From: Gracilinema caldarium
GTDB lineage: Bacteria > Spirochaetota > Spirochaetia > Treponematales > Breznakiellaceae
Direction: 5' to 3'
DNA: 43,558 nt
NCBI RefSeq assembly: GCF_029265695.1
Contig: NZ_JAJUHW010000024.1
Span: forward strand, 1 to 43,558
Shown here: positions 22,768 through 31,762 of the stretch, one piece after another
Layout of the letters: each line of letters begins with the position of its first letter
Numbering within the stretch: position 1 is the first letter of the stretch
Made by a program: the position numbers and the translations under genes
Notes under the pieces: model-generated
What the model was told of the DNA's origin: nothing
Database searches by the model: none
Seen by the model: the letters and a program-made list of their open reading frames with translations, nothing else

Positions 22768-22796
22768 ACTATAGGGAGCAGTTACAGGTATGTCAA
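22768..22796 (-). promoter_or_regulatory. metG: Consensus promoter for metG, predicted leaderless or near-leaderless
   Basis: On the minus strand, TTGACA (22791-22796), 17 bases, TATAGT (22768-22773), then nine bases to the metG ATG. The -35 overlaps the stop codon of the upstream GH57-like gene. No Shine-Dalgarno sequence is present. Confidence 0.8.
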
Positions 22797-24658
22797 GCTA
22801 AGGCTGACTTTCCCTGTTTTTTTTCAAAACTCACATAAAAGCTTGTCTCCCATTGTTCTCCTGGAGTAAGCAGTATTTCCTGAATCGGCAGTATACAGGT
22901 AGATTGATAAACAGAGGGCGGTGAAAAGACCTGGTATTGCCAAGCATCAAAGGGAACCACAGATTTTATAGAAATGAGCACATCATTTTTGTTGTCCTTA
23001 TAGATGACTTGTTCAGTATTCCGTACCTCATGGATATCCAAGTCCAATTCCTTGGTTTCTCCGCTTCTTGCAATAAACAATTGATAAGCCTTTGTAGAAA
23101 ACTCACTAAAAGAAAACTCTAGGTGAGGTAAAAAAGTAAATCGTTCTGTTTCAGACCCCTTATTCATTAAGGTATAGGTCAGCATGAGTGTATTCTTTTT
23201 CAGCCCATACTGTTTTTTAATAGATATATTACCAAAGGGCTCAGCTTGATTGGCTTCGAGAATAAAGCTTATTGTATTGTGCGGCTTGTTTATAGATTCT
23301 TCCTGATACAATTCCCTTCCAGTAAAGCGGTTCCGGTGCTGACTATCGGATATAATCTCATGGAGCGAACATCCTGGAGGGCAAAGATATTCTACAAAAG
23401 AAGTCCGTTTTGGAACAGGATAGGGAAGCTCATCCTGCACATAGAATGTATCGGTATAATTAGTAGCAGCTGGCATATAATCAAGCTCAAAAATCGAGGC
23501 TCCCTGAAGACCCACATAACAATTTAATTCATTACCCTGTATTACATATTCAATCTTTCCGTCTAAATTGAAATCAAAGGCTAATATAGAGGGAATGAAT
23601 ACACCCTTTTCTCTCGTTATTTTTTCAGCTTCGATGAGAGCCCGGTACATAGCATTCCTGATAGAGTTGTTTTGTATCCCCTGGGCTGAATCGAGCGCAA
23701 AAGCATCTATTCCTTGGGCTTTCCATAGCTCTTCCCGGGCATTTTTCTTCCGTGCCTTGTCTCCCCTAAGCTGGTTAATGAGCGTATGGACATAAATCAT
23801 TTTGCTATAAAGCCCATTAGCCTCGGAATGTTTAACCAGAGTCTTTCTGAGGTTTACTCCTGTTAAATAGGTTTTGGAAAATGTTAAATCCTGTTTTAAG
23901 TATTTAATCGGAAGGGTTAATTCAAAAGTATCGGAGTCATCTTTTAAATATTTAAAAATCTGGTTTATATAAATCTCTGGATTGTATTTCTCATGCCCAT
24001 CCTCTGATTGAGTCTCTATATCTAAAAGCATTGAAAGGATAGATTCTTTTTGGTTTTTAAGTGCCGCCTTTTTTTTAAATTGTGCTAAATAGGCCAGCGC
24101 TTCATCGGGGGTCGTGACACGATATACAGGAAACAATGTGGTGAGCTTTCCCTGATCTTCGGTGATGAATGCCTGGGAAACAAAAGCACTATCCATGGAC
24201 ACTTCGGTGAACTGAGCGTGATTCACAAAAGTATAGTCAATACCACAGGCATTAAGTACGGATGCAAAGTTTTGTTCCCACACAAGGCCGGGAATCCAAC
24301 AACCTCTGGGACGCTTACCAAAATGTTTTCTTATGTAAGTAGTAAGCAATTCAATCTGACCAATCTTATCGGTTACCGATATGAGGGGTAAAATTGGTTC
24401 ATAAAACCCTCCCCCCAGCAGTTCGATCTGCTTTCGGTTTATCAGTTCCTCAAAAATCATAAAAAGTTCTGGATGACGCCGTTCTAACCATTCAAATAGC
24501 GTTCCAGAACAGTGCATTACCACAGAAAAATAAGGTATTTGATAAAGACTTGTAATGAGAGGTTTTAGGTTCTGGGAATAATATGTCTCAAATACATCTT
24601 CCGAAGAACCAAACGGTATATGATGATGACTGATAATAATTACTTTCACTTTATTCAT
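22793..24658 (-). CDS. GH57-like glucanotransferase/amylase family protein with altered nucleophile motif
   Basis: A 621-residue protein with the order of conserved regions of glycoside hydrolase family 57 4-alpha-glucanotransferases: SHHHIPFG (about residue 10), IELLGGGFYEPILP (78-91), GCWIPGLVWEQNF (119-131), a SEDGHEKY stretch (218-225), and a C-terminal beta domain of the DUF1926 type. In active enzymes the third region reads xERVWEP, with glutamate as nucleophile. Here it is PGLVWEQ, with glycine (G124) at that position. Region 1 also has HIP in place of HQP. The protein may therefore be inactive, or use a different residue. The gene ends over the metG promoter. Links to glycogen (glgA is elsewhere in the window) are inference only. 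Confidence 0.75.
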   Translation of the reverse strand: MNKVKVIIISHHHIPFGSSEDVFETYYSQNLKPLITSLYQIPYFSVVMHCSGTLFEWLERRHPELFMIFEELINRKQIELLGGGFYEPILPLISVTDKIGQIELLTTYIRKHFGKRPRGCWIPGLVWEQNFASVLNACGIDYTFVNHAQFTEVSMDSAFVSQAFITEDQGKLTTLFPVYRVTTPDEALAYLAQFKKKAALKNQKESILSMLLDIETQSEDGHEKYNPEIYINQIFKYLKDDSDTFELTLPIKYLKQDLTFSKTYLTGVNLRKTLVKHSEANGLYSKMIYVHTLINQLRGDKARKKNAREELWKAQGIDAFALDSAQGIQNNSIRNAMYRALIEAEKITREKGVFIPSILAFDFNLDGKIEYVIQGNELNCYVGLQGASIFELDYMPAATNYTDTFYVQDELPYPVPKRTSFVEYLCPPGCSLHEIISDSQHRNRFTGRELYQEESINKPHNTISFILEANQAEPFGNISIKKQYGLKKNTLMLTYTLMNKGSETERFTFLPHLEFSFSEFSTKAYQLFIARSGETKELDLDIHEVRNTEQVIYKDNKNDVLISIKSVVPFDAWQYQVFSPPSVYQSTCILPIQEILLTPGEQWETSFYVSFEKKQGKSALA

Positions 24659-24799: not shown

Positions 24800-25363
24800 C
24801 TATCTGCTAAAAAGATGTATTACTAAAGGAACGAGGGCTGAAAATAGCATAGACAAAAGACCTGTAGAGATGAGCAATAGGGGCTGACCCTTAAAAAACA
24901 TCGGAACCCCCTCTATTTCTGATCGTTTTTGTATACCATTTAAAATCATTAATACAAACATAAAACCAAGGGCGCCGCCTAATGCAAATAAAAAGGCCTG
25001 CGATAACGATTGGGCAAACATAAGGGTCTGAAACGCACCATAAAAGGCTATACCCTCATAGCCGCTGAATACAGATTTGTCTAAAACATTATCTTTTGTA
25101 TGTTGAATGACCGCACTGAGTCTATCAACCACCACACAACATAAGACAGTGACTGGAAATAAAAAAAATATTCCATATTCTCCAAAACCAATGGGATTAA
25201 ACACGTATGTATATATAAGCCAGCCCATCACGCCCGATAAAAACAGGGAAATAAGAGGAGCCAAAGCCTTTTTTGGATCTTCGGCATACATAATACCAAA
25301 ACCATTTTGGATAATGCCATTAAACATGAAAAATGCAGCAAAAATAGAGAGCAAAATCTGCAT
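24800..25363 (-). CDS. rnfA: RnfA-like membrane subunit lacking iron-sulfur cysteines
   Basis: A 187-residue protein with six hydrophobic helices, assigned to the RnfA/NqrE family by size, the C-terminal stretch IEGVPMFFKGQPLLLISTGLLSM (compare the family's VPxPFRGxxIxLIxAGLMSL) and its position after rnfE. In known RnfA proteins, cysteines in LGLCP and TTNCAVLG hold an iron-sulfur cluster shared with RnfE. Here those places read IIQNGFGIM and IAFYGAFQTLM, without cysteine. The only two cysteines are adjacent (C75, C76) in another helix. The start overlaps the rnfE stop by one base. It is the last rnf gene, and no rnfB follows. The family assignment is good, but cofactor binding is doubtful. 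Confidence 0.78.
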   Translation of the reverse strand: MQILLSIFAAFFMFNGIIQNGFGIMYAEDPKKALAPLISLFLSGVMGWLIYTYVFNPIGFGEYGIFFLFPVTVLCCVVVDRLSAVIQHTKDNVLDKSVFSGYEGIAFYGAFQTLMFAQSLSQAFLFALGGALGFMFVLMILNGIQKRSEIEGVPMFFKGQPLLLISTGLLSMLFSALVPLVIHLFSR

Positions 25364-26001
25364 TACCTGTTCTCCTTTTGAGCATAATAATTCACAAACA
25401 TTGCTCTAAAGATACGGTAAAACCCCACGACAAATCCGAGGAGTATCAATCCACCACCGGTAGTAGCAAATATTCTTACCGACATATCTGCAGCAATTTC
25501 TGAAGTTAAAATTGCTGTAATACCTTCTTTGGTTGGCAAACTAATCGATCCAAAACCAAGGGGTTCACGAATCAAAGAAAGTAGGAGCATGATACCTGAG
25601 AGCACCAGGGCACGAATGATGACCTGATTCAGTGTATCTTTGAACGATTTTTCGGTATTTTTTTCTTCCAGTTCTGAAAATATATAAACAACCGGAACAA
25701 GGGAGAGGGGAAACAAAAGTTCATGAAATAAGAGCGGAGAAAACAAATTTACCAGAAAACCAAAAAGAAAGGACCAGAAGCTGCTGATTAACACAGAGAT
25801 AATTGTCTTGTATGTTTTTGGAATCCATAGATCTGCCGCAAGACAGGTTAAACTTGAAAGTAAATAGGTCCAAATAAGAGCGAGGGTCCCTATAATAGCT
25901 ATAGAAAAACGGGTAGAAGAAACGAGCAGGAACGGAACATATGAAAAATCTGCTAAAGGAGATCGGGTTCCCCAAAAAGGATGAGATTCTAAACGATCCA
26001 T
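25363..26001 (-). CDS. rnfE: RnfE-like membrane subunit lacking iron-sulfur cysteines
   Basis: A 212-residue polytopic membrane protein with about six helices in the RnfE position. Recognisable family features are the central ALVLSGIMLLLSLIREPLGFG (compare the GSLREIIGxG region) and the C-terminal GGGLILLGFVVGFYR. The two stretches that carry cluster cysteines in other RnfE proteins (QLLGLCPLLAVT and IVTNCIVVG) correspond here to LADFSYVPFLLVSS and SLVPVVYIFSE, both without cysteine. The single cysteine (C53) lies elsewhere. The start codon directly abuts the stop of the preceding gene (TAAATG). Confidence 0.75.
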   Translation of the reverse strand: MDRLESHPFWGTRSPLADFSYVPFLLVSSTRFSIAIIGTLALIWTYLLSSLTCLAADLWIPKTYKTIISVLISSFWSFLFGFLVNLFSPLLFHELLFPLSLVPVVYIFSELEEKNTEKSFKDTLNQVIIRALVLSGIMLLLSLIREPLGFGSISLPTKEGITAILTSEIAADMSVRIFATTGGGLILLGFVVGFYRIFRAMFVNYYAQKENR

Positions 26002-26433
26002 TTATTTGCTCCTTTGCTCTGTTAAAAGAGGGTTAGAAATCCATAAATTTACATAAAAATCCATCATCCCATTAGATATACGATGATTAATAAAACGAGA
26101 GTTCATACTCGCAGGATAGAGCGCATCAATATTATTTTTATCATTGATGAAAGCTAAATTAAGAGATAAACCATAGGGTGTGTATATTGGAAAAAGTAAG
26201 ACCCTTCGATTGTTCTTATTGCCCGAAAACAATACTGTCTGGGAAGTCATATCAATAGTGTTTTTTACTATTTCCTTAGTTTCTTGTTTATTGAGTTCCG
26301 CATTACAGGCAGCAACCAGAGCAGTGCTGCGGACCGTCCCTGTAAACCTAACAAGGGACCATGATAAACTTAATAAAACAAGAATCCATACCAACAATAT
26401 CACTATATCCTGAAATAATTGTTTCATGCTCAT
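26002..26433 (-). CDS. Small single-helix protein in the rnfG position
   Basis: This 143-residue protein has one N-terminal membrane helix (about residues 8-29) and a short extracytoplasmic part. It occupies the place of rnfG between rnfD and rnfE, overlaps rnfD by four bases (ATGA) and abuts rnfE. RnfG proteins are usually around 200 residues and carry a C-terminal SGAT motif that bears covalent FMN. No SGA[ST] motif occurs here, and the FMN-binding domain is not recognisable. It could be a strongly reduced RnfG that keeps only a structural role, or an unrelated replacement. I give no gene symbol because the assignment rests on position and topology alone. Confidence 0.6.
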   Translation of the reverse strand: MSMKQLFQDIVILLVWILVLLSLSWSLVRFTGTVRSTALVAACNAELNKQETKEIVKNTIDMTSQTVLFSGNKNNRRVLLFPIYTPYGLSLNLAFINDKNNIDALYPASMNSRFINHRISNGMMDFYVNLWISNPLLTEQRSK

Positions 26434-27479
26434 CTCCGGTTAGTGTATAAAAACTTTATTTCAAGATGACGAATAGCTGGGACAAGGGCATTGGCAACCA
26501 TAATCCCATAGAGTGCGCCAAAAGGAGCGCCGCCAAAAAAACGAAACAAAAATCCGAGAATTGCAGCTATTGCGGCTGTAAGAATACCCGCCTGATATGA
26601 TTTCGTTCCGGTAGCAGGATCTGCTGCAAGGATAAAGGCAGACAAAATAATGCCGCCATTCAAAAGAGCAAAGAGCATATCACCATTGCCAAAGGCACCG
26701 CCGAATGGGATAGCCCCAAACAGGCGGACGAGCAATACATATACACCTATATAAACAGCCGGAATAATGGGCTTATTGATCCGGGTTGCGGTTATGATAA
26801 TCGTGCCAATAATTAAAAATCCGATCCCTCTATCAGCGATAATTCCCGGACCGGTAAATGCAAAGAAGTCCAAATATCCTGCAGGAAGCTCCGCATTTAT
26901 TCGAGAAAAAAGAACATTATTAAACAAATTGGTTAAAAAACTATCCTGTGTGCTGACTTTATAGCCAGCTATTTTTAATATTGCAAGCGGAGATCCAGAT
27001 GGATCAATGAGCCCCCGCTCTACAGCCTGATATAACCGCTGCAAGGCTGAACCATCCAGGGCCTGTTCAAAATTAGGAGGCCAAGAAAGGGATGCAAAAA
27101 GCCATCCACCCAATGCGGGATTCAACCAGTTTGACCCAAGCCCTCCATAAGCATGTTTTACAATACCTATGGCAAAGAGGGCGCTTAAAACCGCAATAAC
27201 CGGATGCACCGAATTAGGGAGCAAAAGGGTCAATACTAGCGCGGTGGTAACTGCGCTCCCGTCATGGAGCGTGAAATTGCCGCGGGCACCATTTATTGCC
27301 AGTTCCATCAGGATTGCAGCAAGAAGGGCTGAAACAGCAATCAGGAGACTATACCAATTATCACTTATGGCCGATTGCAGTATGACCAATCCGGCCATTG
27401 ACGACACGAGCCACATTCTTTGGCTTGTAGAATCAGTGATATGAATCAAAGGCTTGCGGGCAACATGAATGGAGTTCAT
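26430..27479 (-). CDS. rnfD: RnfD-like membrane subunit with altered flavinylation site
   Basis: A 349-residue protein of the RnfD/NqrB family with about nine to ten helices. Family stretches include ALVLTLLLPNSVHPVIA, AIGIVKHAYGGLGSNWLNPALGGWLF (the KxxFGGxGxNxFNPA-type loop) and the C-terminal ILAADPATGTKSYQAGILTAAIAAILGFLFR, all cited in part. Covalent FMN in RnfD attaches to threonine in DxxSGATPLA. Here the aligned segment is DPSGSPLA (residues 159-166), shorter by a residue or two and with serine in place of alanine-threonine. Flavinylation by an ApbE-type enzyme is therefore uncertain but not excluded. It lies 5 bases after rnfC. Confidence 0.85.
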   Translation of the reverse strand: MNSIHVARKPLIHITDSTSQRMWLVSSMAGLVILQSAISDNWYSLLIAVSALLAAILMELAINGARGNFTLHDGSAVTTALVLTLLLPNSVHPVIAVLSALFAIGIVKHAYGGLGSNWLNPALGGWLFASLSWPPNFEQALDGSALQRLYQAVERGLIDPSGSPLAILKIAGYKVSTQDSFLTNLFNNVLFSRINAELPAGYLDFFAFTGPGIIADRGIGFLIIGTIIITATRINKPIIPAVYIGVYVLLVRLFGAIPFGGAFGNGDMLFALLNGGIILSAFILAADPATGTKSYQAGILTAAIAAILGFLFRFFGGAPFGALYGIMVANALVPAIRHLEIKFLYTNRR

Positions 27480-27484
27480 AGGAT

Positions 27485-28792
27485 CTACTTTTTTCCTCTT
27501 TTTATAGAAACCCTAATTGTCGAACTTAAGGGCAACCGGGATGGACAAACCACTTCGCAGCATCCGCAACCGTGACAACTGTTGGCTCGATGGGCCAATG
27601 CTTCAGCATCACGTTCTAGCAATGCCAATTTAAATAAGTATTCCGGATCGAGCCCGACCGGACAAACAGAACGGCATTCACCGCAGTTGGTACAATCATG
27701 GATAATTTCACCGCCAATTTGGTCTTCTGTAAGGGCCACAACCGCAATGGTAGTCTTTGTAACCGGTTCATCCAGGTCCTGCACAGCCATTCCTTTAAGA
27801 GGCGAACCGGTTGCAATTTTCTTGGGCTGTACAAGGAAACCACCGCATTGGGATATCACATCCCCAATTCTGGTTCCAATACGAACCCGGAGCACCTGCG
27901 GATGTTTTATGGAACCGCCGCCGACGGCCACATACCGCTCAAGAATGGGCTTATTCTGAACGACCGCATCAAAAACTGCGGCTAAGGTTGCAGGGCCGCA
28001 AATACACCAGGAACCGAGGTCTATATTTTCGTTCTTCTGATAACTTTTAAGGACCGTTTCAAGTTCCCGCCGGTTCCTTTGGGGATATCGGGATCCGGTA
28101 ACAATGAGCTTTATCTGTATTCCCAGTTCTACAGACCTAATTCTAATTCGCTCCGCAAGCTCCATCTCCTGGTTCGATACTGCAAACACAATATGGGTTG
28201 CACTTGCGGCCTTTGCTGCAATGGAAGCACCAATTAATATTTCATCAAGCCGTTCCAAAGATAGCACATAATCTGCTACGAGCCAGGGATCATCAAATAT
28301 CATCCGCACCACAAGACTGACAGTTTTTGACTGGTTAGCAGCATCCCGGATTATTTCTATAAAGGGCCGGCCAGGTTCTTCCATCTCAACAATGCCCTTT
28401 TCTGATAAAATCCGCTGCAGATCGAAACCAGATAGGCCTTGCCAGATAAAATTTTCCTTTTTTTTCCCTAGTTTATCAAAGGAACCTTCGAGCCGTATTA
28501 AAAAACCTTTAGTTGATCTACCATCAGCCAGTTTCCAAGAAACAATCTTAACGACAGTTCCCGGAATTGAAGCGTGTATATTCGCGGATCCGAGACCATA
28601 ACCGCGGCCAATGAGCATGCCCTCACGGACTTGGCTACCGGCCTCTACAAGGGGCACGGCTTCCGCACCGGGATGCTGGATCAACGGTATTAATGCAAGA
28701 GTAGGAAGATATGCAATCCTACTGGCTTGAACCGGAGGAACCGTAAGGTCCTCTAATTCAAGGCCCCCCTTAGGAAACTGGTAAATTTTCAT
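27485..28792 (-). CDS. rnfC: RnfC-like iron-sulfur subunit
   Basis: A 435-residue peripheral subunit with the RnfC barrel-sandwich start (PKGGLELEDLTVPP, IHASIPGTVVKI), a Rossmann-like middle and a C-terminal ferredoxin part. Two complete 4Fe-4S motifs are present: C367, C370, C373, C377 and C406, C409, C412, C416. An SLBB-like stretch (RVRIGTRIGDVISQCGG) precedes them. The usual YPxGGxKQL loop of the nucleotide/flavin domain is RYPQRNRREL here (235-244), with the glycine pair lost. NADH or FMN binding may therefore be altered. The start overlaps the upstream membrane gene in an ATGA. Of all subunits in this cluster, this one keeps the clearest redox centres. Confidence 0.9.
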   Translation of the reverse strand: MKIYQFPKGGLELEDLTVPPVQASRIAYLPTLALIPLIQHPGAEAVPLVEAGSQVREGMLIGRGYGLGSANIHASIPGTVVKIVSWKLADGRSTKGFLIRLEGSFDKLGKKKENFIWQGLSGFDLQRILSEKGIVEMEEPGRPFIEIIRDAANQSKTVSLVVRMIFDDPWLVADYVLSLERLDEILIGASIAAKAASATHIVFAVSNQEMELAERIRIRSVELGIQIKLIVTGSRYPQRNRRELETVLKSYQKNENIDLGSWCICGPATLAAVFDAVVQNKPILERYVAVGGGSIKHPQVLRVRIGTRIGDVISQCGGFLVQPKKIATGSPLKGMAVQDLDEPVTKTTIAVVALTEDQIGGEIIHDCTNCGECRSVCPVGLDPEYLFKLALLERDAEALAHRANSCHGCGCCEVVCPSRLPLSSTIRVSIKRGKK

Positions 28793-30204
28793 GCTGCAAT
28801 CCGTTTATCTAAATATCCAGATTTATATAGGGCTAACAATTGACCATGCGACGCACGGAATAATATAAAAAGAATTCCACTAATAAATATCACAAGATAT
28901 AGCCCTTGTCCTATAGAATGGGAACGAATAATTGGAGCATTTCCCGAGAGAAGAAGGGATTCTAAAGGGGGCAGTGAAAGGGTTTGGTAAACATTATCAA
29001 TGGCAACTTCATGAGTCTTAGCTGAAATAAGCCCGTCTGCATCCAGCACATAGGTGTAATAACCGCCATTATTCGAACTATCAGGATACAGTGAATCTAT
29101 GGAAAAACGATATTGCCTTTCCATATGGGCTTGATAGTTATCAAAAGAAAGCGGGATAAGATTTGCATCGGTTTTACCTGAAACGCTTTTTGAGCCCTGT
29201 ATCAGGATCGAAAGCACAAAAAACGCCGCCGCACAACTTACAAAGGGCAGTAAAACCCTCAATGGTTCGGCAAAACTTTTAACCGATCGAATCAATTGTA
29301 TTGGAAGAAAAAAACGATGTTCAATTTTTGATGCGGATTCAAAATAAAGAAGAGAAAATAACGTGTCAGTAGATATCAGCACCACAAGGCCTGCAAGGGC
29401 TATTGTCCATGGAATGGTAAGCACAAAACAGCTTAATACATAGAGAATTAAAAAAATTAAACCGTTTATCAGGTCTGTTTTGTACCAATGAAAAAAGGCA
29501 GGAACATGAACCGGTTCTTTTTTATATAATCGGAACATAAAATCCTGCATAGATTGCTCAAGTGCGGTTTTCATAGCTATCAACAAACCGGCCGCAACCA
29601 AACCGCCAAAGCCTGCATTTAGAAATACCAGCATCGTTGGTAATGCTGTCACTATATGTGTCTTCCTGCGGGAAATCAGGGCAAAATAGATTAAAATACC
29701 GGCAAAAACAAGGCCATTTAACCACCAGGGCAACTGAACCTGATTTGATCCAGATACCTGAATAGTTGGCCCATATTCTGAAAGGCTTTTTTCTATTTTA
29801 CGGATAAGAGTATCCATTCTTGTCCAAGGAGAATAGAACGAAAGGGGAATAAAAAAGCGACGTTGACCGCCAGAAACAAAAACGTTTTTTAGCTTATCAA
29901 CATAGCCATCGTTTCGCGGGTCAAGGGGTTCAATATATTTATCAAATTCCTTAAGCGGAATTGAACGGGGCTTTTCAAAATCATCAATGTAAACAAATTG
30001 GGTTGACTCAGATACAACAGGAGACAAATTGAGTTTATCTAGCCGTTCAAAAACCAGCTGTTCTTCAACGTTATCCGGCAGGCTCAATACCAGCAATGCA
30101 GCATTTTTTGTATTGCTGCTACTTTTAAAGCTATACCCAATAAAACCGGCAACACCCAGCATCCAAAGAATGGTATAAAACCATAGGATTCGGCGGCGTT
30201 TCAT
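28789..30204 (-). CDS. Unknown multi-helix membrane protein in the rnf operon
   Basis: I do not recognise this 471-residue protein. It has an N-terminal helix (about residues 8-25), a periplasmic region of roughly 130 residues with alternating strands and helices (VEEQLVFERLDKLNLSPVV; QRRFFIPLSFYSPW), then five or more helices between about 160 and 340. A second extracytoplasmic part follows (YRFSIDSLYPDSSNNGGYYTYVLD), then a final helix (about 430-448) and a basic cytoplasmic tail. GGGGGAG precedes the ATG. It sits 11 bases after the PAP2-like gene and overlaps rnfC by four bases, so it is translated with the Rnf subunits and may belong to that complex. No cofactor motif is visible. Confidence 0.7.
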   Translation of the reverse strand: MKRRRILWFYTILWMLGVAGFIGYSFKSSSNTKNAALLVLSLPDNVEEQLVFERLDKLNLSPVVSESTQFVYIDDFEKPRSIPLKEFDKYIEPLDPRNDGYVDKLKNVFVSGGQRRFFIPLSFYSPWTRMDTLIRKIEKSLSEYGPTIQVSGSNQVQLPWWLNGLVFAGILIYFALISRRKTHIVTALPTMLVFLNAGFGGLVAAGLLIAMKTALEQSMQDFMFRLYKKEPVHVPAFFHWYKTDLINGLIFLILYVLSCFVLTIPWTIALAGLVVLISTDTLFSLLYFESASKIEHRFFLPIQLIRSVKSFAEPLRVLLPFVSCAAAFFVLSILIQGSKSVSGKTDANLIPLSFDNYQAHMERQYRFSIDSLYPDSSNNGGYYTYVLDADGLISAKTHEVAIDNVYQTLSLPPLESLLLSGNAPIIRSHSIGQGLYLVIFISGILFILFRASHGQLLALYKSGYLDKRIAA

Positions 30205-30215
30205 AGCATCTCCCC

Positions 30216-30704
30216 CTACAGGAGGGCAAAAGCAGCCGCAATCAGGATACCCAAAAGAGCGCCAACGAGAACTTCAAGAGGTGCGTGTCCCTGAATTTCC
30301 TTAACCTGATGATAGGGCACATTCAGCCGGTCTGAAACCTCTTTCCCAAGCAAATTGAGAGCCCGGGCCTGAAGTCCTGCGGATCTGCGCACACCCATAG
30401 AATCCCGAATCACGATAAGTGCAAGACAGAGGGTAACAATAAAGATAGTGGATCCCAGGCCTTCTTTAAAACCCACCGAGGTAGCAAGGGCAGTTACAAG
30501 GGATGAGTGGCTGGATGGCATCCCCCCTGTTTTCCAGAGCAATGTAGAGACAATTTCCTTTGCGGACTTTTTCGTACTTTTAAGCAACACAATGACGGCT
30601 TTCAGCAACTGCGCAAAAATAAGACTGGTTACGGCTGAAAGAAATACAGGGTTTTCAATGAAAGCCGAAAAATCTTTAGAACGTAACGGAATTAATGAAA
30701 CCAT
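30216..30704 (-). CDS. Divergent PAP2 family (DUF212) membrane protein
   Basis: Starting at the ATG at 30704 (162 residues), the protein has four to five membrane helices and the divergent PAP2 signatures TGGMPSSHSSLVTAL, VIRDSMGVRRSAGLQA and EIQGHAPLEVLVGALLG. In true PAP2 enzymes the SSH and the later histidine form the phosphatase centre. For the DUF212 branch the activity and substrate are not established. An in-frame upstream codon at 30764 is possible but would run across the promoter and the divergent gene's control region. This is the first gene of the rnf transcript. Confidence 0.85.
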   Translation of the reverse strand: MVSLIPLRSKDFSAFIENPVFLSAVTSLIFAQLLKAVIVLLKSTKKSAKEIVSTLLWKTGGMPSSHSSLVTALATSVGFKEGLGSTIFIVTLCLALIVIRDSMGVRRSAGLQARALNLLGKEVSDRLNVPYHQVKEIQGHAPLEVLVGALLGILIAAAFALL

Positions 30705-30710
30705 TGCCTT

Positions 30711-30739
30711 ACAATCCCCTATGTGGGCTCTTTTGTCAA
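30711..30739 (-). promoter_or_regulatory. Promoter for the PAP2-rnf operon, predicted leaderless
   Basis: Minus-strand TTGACA (30734-30739), 17 bases, GATTGT (30711-30716), then six bases to the ATG at 30704. The -35 is perfect. The -10 is imperfect but keeps the key second and last bases. The heptamer is shared with the divergent promoter. Confidence 0.6.
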
Positions 30740-30759
30740 GAACCAGCTTCTGATAGAAT
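30733..30759 (+). promoter_or_regulatory. Candidate promoter for the RluA-like gene
   Basis: Plus-strand TTGTCA (30733-30738) overlaps the opposite -35 by five bases. TAGAAT (30754-30759) follows after a short 15-base spacer and ends seven bases before the ATG at 30767. There is no Shine-Dalgarno sequence. Confidence 0.5.
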
Positions 30760-30766
30760 ACCATAT

Positions 30767-31762
30767 ATGGCCTATACTGCGCAAATCACCCCCGATGACC
30801 AAAACAGGCGGCTGGATCGCATTTTGCGGAAAGCATTTCCCAGCCTGCCCTTATCGGCAATTCATAAAATGATTAGAAAAGGCCAGGTTCATATTGATGG
30901 AAAGCCGGTTTCTGCGTCCTTTAAGCCCCAAGCAGGTTCGGTGCTCGAAATTCAGGTCTTGGATATTGCTCAGAAAGAGAATACAGCTCCAAGACAGCAG
31001 AAAGAACGGGGTCTATCCCTTTCGATACTATTCGAAAATGAAGCGCTCTTGTGCATCAACAAAAAACGGGGCATCCCGGTGCATGGGAAAAAGAGCGTAG
31101 ATGAGGCAGTACAGGCATATTTGATACCCAAACTACCGCTTTCCCTCTCATTCAAACCGGGGCCCTTGCATCGGATCGACCAAGGGACAAGCGGAATCTT
31201 GTTCTTTTCCAAAAACATCCGCGGGGCCCAAGCCTTTAGTGAAGGGCTTCGGGAACATCGCTTTGCAAAATGGTACCTGGCGGTCCTCCAGGGCCATATT
31301 ACCGAAGCGGCCCAATGGGATGATGTAATCCTGCGAAATCGGGAACAGGGTTTAAGTCATATTGATAAAGATGCAATGGAAGGGAAAAGAGCAACGACCA
31401 CAATGTATCCCATTTTACACAATAGAGATTCCCATACTGCGGCGACACTGGTATGCATCAAACTGGGGACAGGACGGACCCATCAGATTAGGGTGCAAGC
31501 GGCACATCATGGTTCTCCGCTCCTTGGTGATATAAAATATGGCGCAAAGAAACAGCCCTTTCCATGGCTACTTCATGCCTATGAAATGGATGGGCTCGAT
31601 ACATTAAACCTTTCAATACCAGCGGATCTCCGGGCACCGCTCTGGCCAGATCAGCTCGCCCTGCTGCAGCGTCTCTTTCCTGCAAAGGAACAGCATCTTT
31701 TTTTTCAAAGACTAGAGCAAACCCCTCCCCTTTTATCGCTCCTTGATGCTATAATTACCTAA
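30767..31762 (+). CDS. RluA-family 23S rRNA/tRNA pseudouridine synthase
   Basis: The ATG at 30767 gives 331 residues beginning directly before the N-terminal S4 RNA-binding domain (NRRLDRILRKAFPSLPLSAI, RKGQVHIDGKPV). An earlier in-frame start at 30695 would overlap the divergent gene and is unlikely. The catalytic motif HRIDQGTSG (135-143, D138 as nucleophile) and the later GRTHQIRVQAAHHGSPLLGD are diagnostic of the RluA/RluC/RluD branch, which converts uridine to pseudouridine. Which RNA site is modified cannot be told from sequence alone. The last codons contain the extended -10 of the next gene, and the stop shares one base with its ATG. Confidence 0.92.
   Translation: MAYTAQITPDDQNRRLDRILRKAFPSLPLSAIHKMIRKGQVHIDGKPVSASFKPQAGSVLEIQVLDIAQKENTAPRQQKERGLSLSILFENEALLCINKKRGIPVHGKKSVDEAVQAYLIPKLPLSLSFKPGPLHRIDQGTSGILFFSKNIRGAQAFSEGLREHRFAKWYLAVLQGHITEAAQWDDVILRNREQGLSHIDKDAMEGKRATTTMYPILHNRDSHTAATLVCIKLGTGRTHQIRVQAAHHGSPLLGDIKYGAKKQPFPWLLHAYEMDGLDTLNLSIPADLRAPLWPDQLALLQRLFPAKEQHLFFQRLEQTPPLLSLLDAIIT
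31747..31755 (+). promoter_or_regulatory. Extended -10 promoter inside the RluA-like gene end
   Basis: TGCTATAAT is a perfect extended -10 (TGn plus TATAAT) ending six bases before the ATG at 31762. It lies within the last codons of the upstream gene. No -35 is evident, as is usual for extended -10 promoters. No ribosome binding site precedes the ATG. Confidence 0.55.

Follow-up and report, generated by a model that had tools for sequence, protein, structure and literature searches.

In the Rnf complex (RnfCDGEAB), RnfC holds one FMN and two [4Fe-4S] clusters, RnfD holds riboflavin and a covalent FMN, RnfG holds a covalent FMN, RnfA and RnfE bind one [2Fe-2S] cluster through four cysteines, and RnfB contains [4Fe-4S] (PMC12174285). 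The proposed origin of the Na+-NQR is a duplicated rnf operon without rnfB (PMC4014512), and NqrM and ApbE are helpers co-transcribed with NQR (PMC12174285). A 'noncanonical RNF' has been proposed in T. pallidum (PMC7512555), and TPANIC_0153 is a divergent PAP2 protein of the same species (PMC8525777).

The window analysed here, a stretch of 43,558 nucleotides from Gracilinema caldarium, contains a minus-strand cluster that resembles these systems in part. Its first gene encodes a DUF212 protein of the divergent PAP2 family (30216-30704), with a full-length match to PF02681 (E=2.4e-42, 144.5 bits, cut-off 26.5). The longest reading frame of this gene was 30764-30216, and the start at 30704, used in the preliminary description, gives 162 aa, which is also the length of DUF212 in a relative from the same genus (L092). 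It is followed by a polytopic membrane protein of 471 aa, here called protein X (28789-30204), and by RnfC (27485-28792, 435 aa). The layout agreed with the preliminary description, with an 11-base gap between DUF212 and X (30205-30215) and a four-base overlap, ATGA, of the X stop with the rnfC start (28789-28792). Further genes on the same strand encode RnfD (26430-27479, 349 aa), a protein in the position of RnfG (26002-26433, 143 aa), an RnfE-like protein (25363-26001, 212 aa, PF02508) and an RnfA-like protein (24800-25363, 187 aa). A 621-aa protein (22793-24658), given the working label 'GH57', closes the conserved cluster in relatives. On the plus strand, a divergent pseudouridine-synthase-like neighbour (30695-31762, working label RluA) is part of the conserved context and lies outside the operon. 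The single promoter suggested for these genes could not be demonstrated, as promoter-like matches in the window were at chance level (13 found against 13.3 expected). An Rfam search of the window gave no match.

The order CDGEA and the recognisable RnfC, RnfD, RnfE and RnfA justify the name 'Rnf genes' that had been given to this cluster, but only in part, as it has no rnfB and most cofactor sites are gone. RnfC retained both [4Fe-4S] motifs (CxxCxxCxxxC), whereas its FMN/NADH loop (GxGGxGFP) and ECEP motif were lost, with EMEEPGRP for GMGGAGFP and RMIFDDP for NGAECEP. Both cysteines of the membrane [2Fe-2S] site were replaced in RnfA as well as in RnfE. The protein in the RnfG position had neither a Pfam match to FMN_bind nor the flavinylation motif [ST]GA[ST], and RnfD read SGSPL at the covalent FMN site, where SATPL or STPL is found elsewhere. 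The cluster thus differs from the Rnf complex in the lost sites of RnfC, RnfA/E and RnfG, in lacking rnfB and in having DUF212 and X placed in front. Since nearly every tested step of the electron path is interrupted, save the [4Fe-4S] motifs of RnfC, the window complex would hardly be able to run as a ferredoxin:NAD+ pump.

A second, canonical rnf set was found in the same genome, with rnfC at a contig end (G000:C36:45084-46400) and rnfDGEAB, including the RnfB of this genome, at the start of contig C13 (L146:190-3848). The genome has a single X, and neither X nor DUF212 lies beside the canonical set. The absence of rnfB, the loss of the NAD/FMN site of RnfC and the intact second copy are all shared with the route proposed for the origin of Na+-NQR. 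Unlike NQR, the window RnfC has [4Fe-4S] motifs, and the [2Fe-2S] cysteines, which NQR retained, were lost. Inspection of the cluster ORFs by eye revealed no candidate for an NqrF-like gene.

Protein X had been described as an unrecognised multi-helix protein with two large extracytoplasmic parts, and both statements were borne out. Searched against Pfam and NCBIfam, neither the single sequence nor its 77-member family scored above cut-off, and the profile found no relative among solved structures (PDB). Both hydropathy and the AlphaFold2 model (mean pLDDT 81.6, pTM 0.73) place an N-terminal helix ahead of a first outer part; the membrane core follows, then a second outer part and one last helix. 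The first outer part (about residues 25-159; 29728-30132, minus strand) was modelled mostly with pLDDT above 90. Its alpha/beta fold resembles the ferredoxin-like one, with structural matches near Z 8 and an rmsd of about 2.6-3.6 over some 75 residues. The second outer part comprises about residues 336-430 (28915-29199, minus strand). Residues conserved in the family include DPRxDxY in the first part, YxxHxxxQ in the second, and HRLFxP.

In whole-chain fold searches the top matches of X were RND-type transporters (best Foldseek E=0.011, TM 0.20-0.24), and the best Z against such entries was 9.9, at an rmsd of 8.5 over 237 residues. Transporters of this type (HpnN, MmpL, NPC1, PTCH1) share with X the succession of one membrane helix, a ferredoxin-like outer domain and further helices. 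The fold matches are too weak to indicate homology of X with them, and the sequence searches gave no family match.

A short form of X, of 229 aa, was found at L147:5014-5703, adjoining a complete rnfCDGEAB. It has a signal-like start, and its first outer part is joined directly to the second, the membrane core being gone. Because this X consists of both outer parts without the core, it is they that seem to do the work of the protein, although few genomes stand behind this claim. The fully secreted form was seen in one genome (L147), and another X is likewise short (L165, 213 aa). An apparent 920-aa fusion of X with RnfC in L047 proved to be a reading-frame artefact, the true X lying in another frame.

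With the 77-member profile, X was found in 150 of the 198 Spirochaetia genomes and in 68 of the 93 genera. A search at BLAST level alone detected it in 28 of the 198 genomes, and a pattern scan of genome contigs with a narrow alignment (A4) recovered three Treponema records only. In genomes with rnfC among the matches listed, rnfC was immediately downstream of X for 92 of 98 X genes. The preliminary description had asked whether both genes precede rnfC in other spirochaetes; they were not mostly unlinked, X lying directly before rnfC almost everywhere and in most of the spirochaete families. The six X genes without a listed adjacent rnfC are largely artefacts of listing or contig ends, since a linked rnfC was visible in the loci of four (G033, G052, G038 and G012, at L043, L106, L040 and L112), and the X of G170 bordered the end of its contig (L035). 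Of 65 adjacent loci, 41 had the ATGA overlap, the nearest start being chosen. The recurrent order in relatives was DUF212-X-rnfC-D-G-E-A-(B)-'GH57', with the same divergent neighbours. Since gene order and overlap recur in more than 20 families, they are not due to chance, and the linkage of X with rnfC is ancient. Adjacency and overlap are conserved, which supports the coupling of these genes proposed earlier.

RRKRQEA, a conserved tail at the C-terminus of X, was considered as a docking motif and rejected, being explained mostly by the Shine-Dalgarno (SD)-like sequence of rnfC and the ATGA overlap. Of 47 loci, 29 had an SD-like sequence within the last 20 bases ahead of the overlap, and ATGA is consistent with the terminal Ala of the tail. 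Tails of this type were absent where X does not precede rnfC. The conserved X ends in relatives thus mostly reflect the ribosome-binding site of rnfC together with the overlap. The end of the window X (28789-28812) itself had no SD-like match within the last 20 bases.

X was associated with two kinds of Rnf. Complete sets were found beside it in about ten families (f4, f8, f14, f19, f23, f26, f27, f28, f31 and f32), with the full-length f14 member counted as complete while its RnfA cysteines were not read. These sets had intact RnfC motifs, RnfA/E cysteines and RnfB, and most also had the flavin motif of RnfG. Stripped sets accompanied X in f1, f2, f3, f10, f15, f17, f22, f30, f33, f36, f41 and f43. 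A second rnfC elsewhere in the genome was detected in 22 of 26 genomes with a stripped linked set, as against 1 of 24 with a complete one (Fisher 3e-9), counts that were read by hand from genomes that are not independent, and that leave out the genomes of f17 and the Borrelia-like ones, whose sole copy is the stripped one. A locus-level Fisher comparison of X with redox state (p=0.049) was left unused, the loci having been chosen partly by X. In the genomes that we take to be Borrelia-like, the order was DUF212-X-(RnfC fused to RnfD)-RnfA-like, and no Fe-S motifs remained in RnfC. The fusion ORF, of about 772 aa, was located at L083:10268-12589, L085:9892-12213, L086:5553-7871 and L087:5327-7642. 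The one Borrelia-like genome searched for them (G149) had no ApbE and no FMN_bind protein.

It had been suggested that X could replace outer domains that RnfG, RnfD or RnfB are missing. X does have two outer parts, and in the window RnfB is absent and the RnfG-position protein reduced. However, RnfG, RnfD and RnfB are all complete beside X in the redox-complete families listed above. X was unrelated to RnfG by hhalign (probability 0.5%), the [ST]GAT flavinylation motif occurred in 0 of the 77 X sequences, and no cysteine was conserved across them. Replacement is thus very improbable. That X is coupled to rnfC and persists with complete and stripped Rnf alike argues for its belonging to the membrane core of Rnf, and it probably works with that core rather than as a substitute for missing parts.

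The association had exceptions in both directions. In f5, f6, f11 and f20 the orthologous locus contained a complete rnfCDGEAB with neither X nor DUF212, so that complete Rnf does not need X. The genome G077, which appears to be T. pallidum-like, partly from its DUF212 gene, had the order DUF212-rnfC-D-E-A with a stripped Rnf. Its locus (L084) is the same as that of the window, with DUF212 in front, but differs in having no X. The only rnf locus found in this genome (L084:7287-12013) was without rnfB, the NADH/FMN motifs of RnfC and the RnfA/E cysteines. In family f9, the place of X, immediately before a partly stripped rnfC, was taken by a 699-aa ORF without a Pfam match (L155:8797-10896). 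In the opposite direction, X was present in family f12, where no convincing rnfC was found. In G027, DUF212, X and 'GH57' followed one another without any rnf gene among them, and the canonical rnf set of that genome was at another site (L096, L161); X lay apart from rnfC in G113 and G146; and in G429 X and a stripped rnf set were on separate contigs (L139, L160).

A mirror-tree comparison showed no X-specific, subunit-like signal. The partial correlation of X with RnfC was 0.33-0.42 when RluA or KH served as control and fell to 0.09 with the 'GH57' gene as control. For RnfC and RnfD it was 0.72-0.89, and 0.76 with the 'GH57' control. X tracked the 'GH57' gene at least as well as it tracked RnfC. 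With complete rnf lacking X in four families, X occurring without Rnf in one, and no subunit-like co-evolution, strict stoichiometric assembly is not supported, and for the same reasons X is unlikely to be an obligate Rnf subunit.

The persistence of X without rnf in f12, and of X or DUF212-X away from rnf in G027, G113, G146 and G429, would fit a separate role of X and DUF212 in the envelope or in lipids, with a place in the operon owed solely to an old gene order that has been preserved. The close tracking of 'GH57' and the conservation of unrelated flanking genes fit as well. Against such independence, the adjacency of X and rnfC outlasts the departure of DUF212 from the locus (in nine loci X and rnfC were adjacent and DUF212 was not found nearby), and it is with rnfC that X has its start-stop overlap. 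The f12 X, moreover, lacks the HRLF motif, and DUF212 lies elsewhere in that genome. We consider a merely positional association improbable.

Extra operon genes with a presumed accessory role are also known as RnfH, RnfX, RnfY, RseC, NqrM and ApbE. X differs in being a large polytopic protein; RnfH, RnfX, RnfY, NqrM and ApbE are named here from the literature. A match to RseC_MucC was obtained with just 1 of the 77 X sequences and was weak (E=0.009). X could be a factor that helps to assemble or insert the membrane subunits in this branch of Rnf rather than a lasting subunit, in a role like that of NqrM or ApbE, which are themselves co-transcribed helpers (PMC12174285). Its place behind DUF212 where the cluster begins, its translational coupling to rnfC, its retention with complete and stripped cores and its weak co-evolution with RnfC and RnfD all suit such a factor. 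Cofactor insertion, however, is impossible in the Borrelia-like genomes, where no tested cofactor site remains; complete Rnf occurs without X; and X in genomes without Rnf is left unexplained. We regard an assembly factor as unlikely.

Our best explanation, to which we give an even chance, is that X serves as an accessory protein, on the outside, of a branch of Rnf specific to spirochaetes. X would be made in step with RnfC through the overlapping genes and would act mainly on the inner membrane, at its outer face. Both extracytoplasmic parts may form one unit, most likely placed over the core of RnfD and RnfA/E, where RnfG normally moves. This placement, and physical contact of X with Rnf, are inferred. 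X would carry no electrons, nor would it substitute for RnfB, RnfG or RnfD. The ferredoxin:NAD+ reaction could be left to the second, intact rnf set of the same genome. As the electron path is broken and this second set is intact, the retained core with X would most likely have a non-redox role, such as gated passage of ions or solutes, or a structural one, a suggestion drawn from the lost residues.

X is a widespread and uncharacterised candidate partner of Rnf, reaching the treponemes and the Borrelia-like genomes. In many spirochaetes the genes named rnf beside it are without electron-transfer residues. Such losses bear on the proposal that an Rnf pump provides T. pallidum with additional ATP, and those in L084 sit badly with that pump as proposed (PMC7512555). 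A stripped rnf set beside a second copy is also similar to the way in which NQR has been proposed to originate, by rnf duplication. We tentatively suggest, at somewhat less than even chance, that in spirochaetes the Rnf core has repeatedly become a membrane complex that transfers no electrons, made up of X, DUF212, RnfC, RnfD and RnfA/E, with X as its outer module, and that the 'Rnf pump' of T. pallidum is no redox pump. The retention of the stripped complex in many lineages raises the question of what job the Rnf membrane core performs without electrons.
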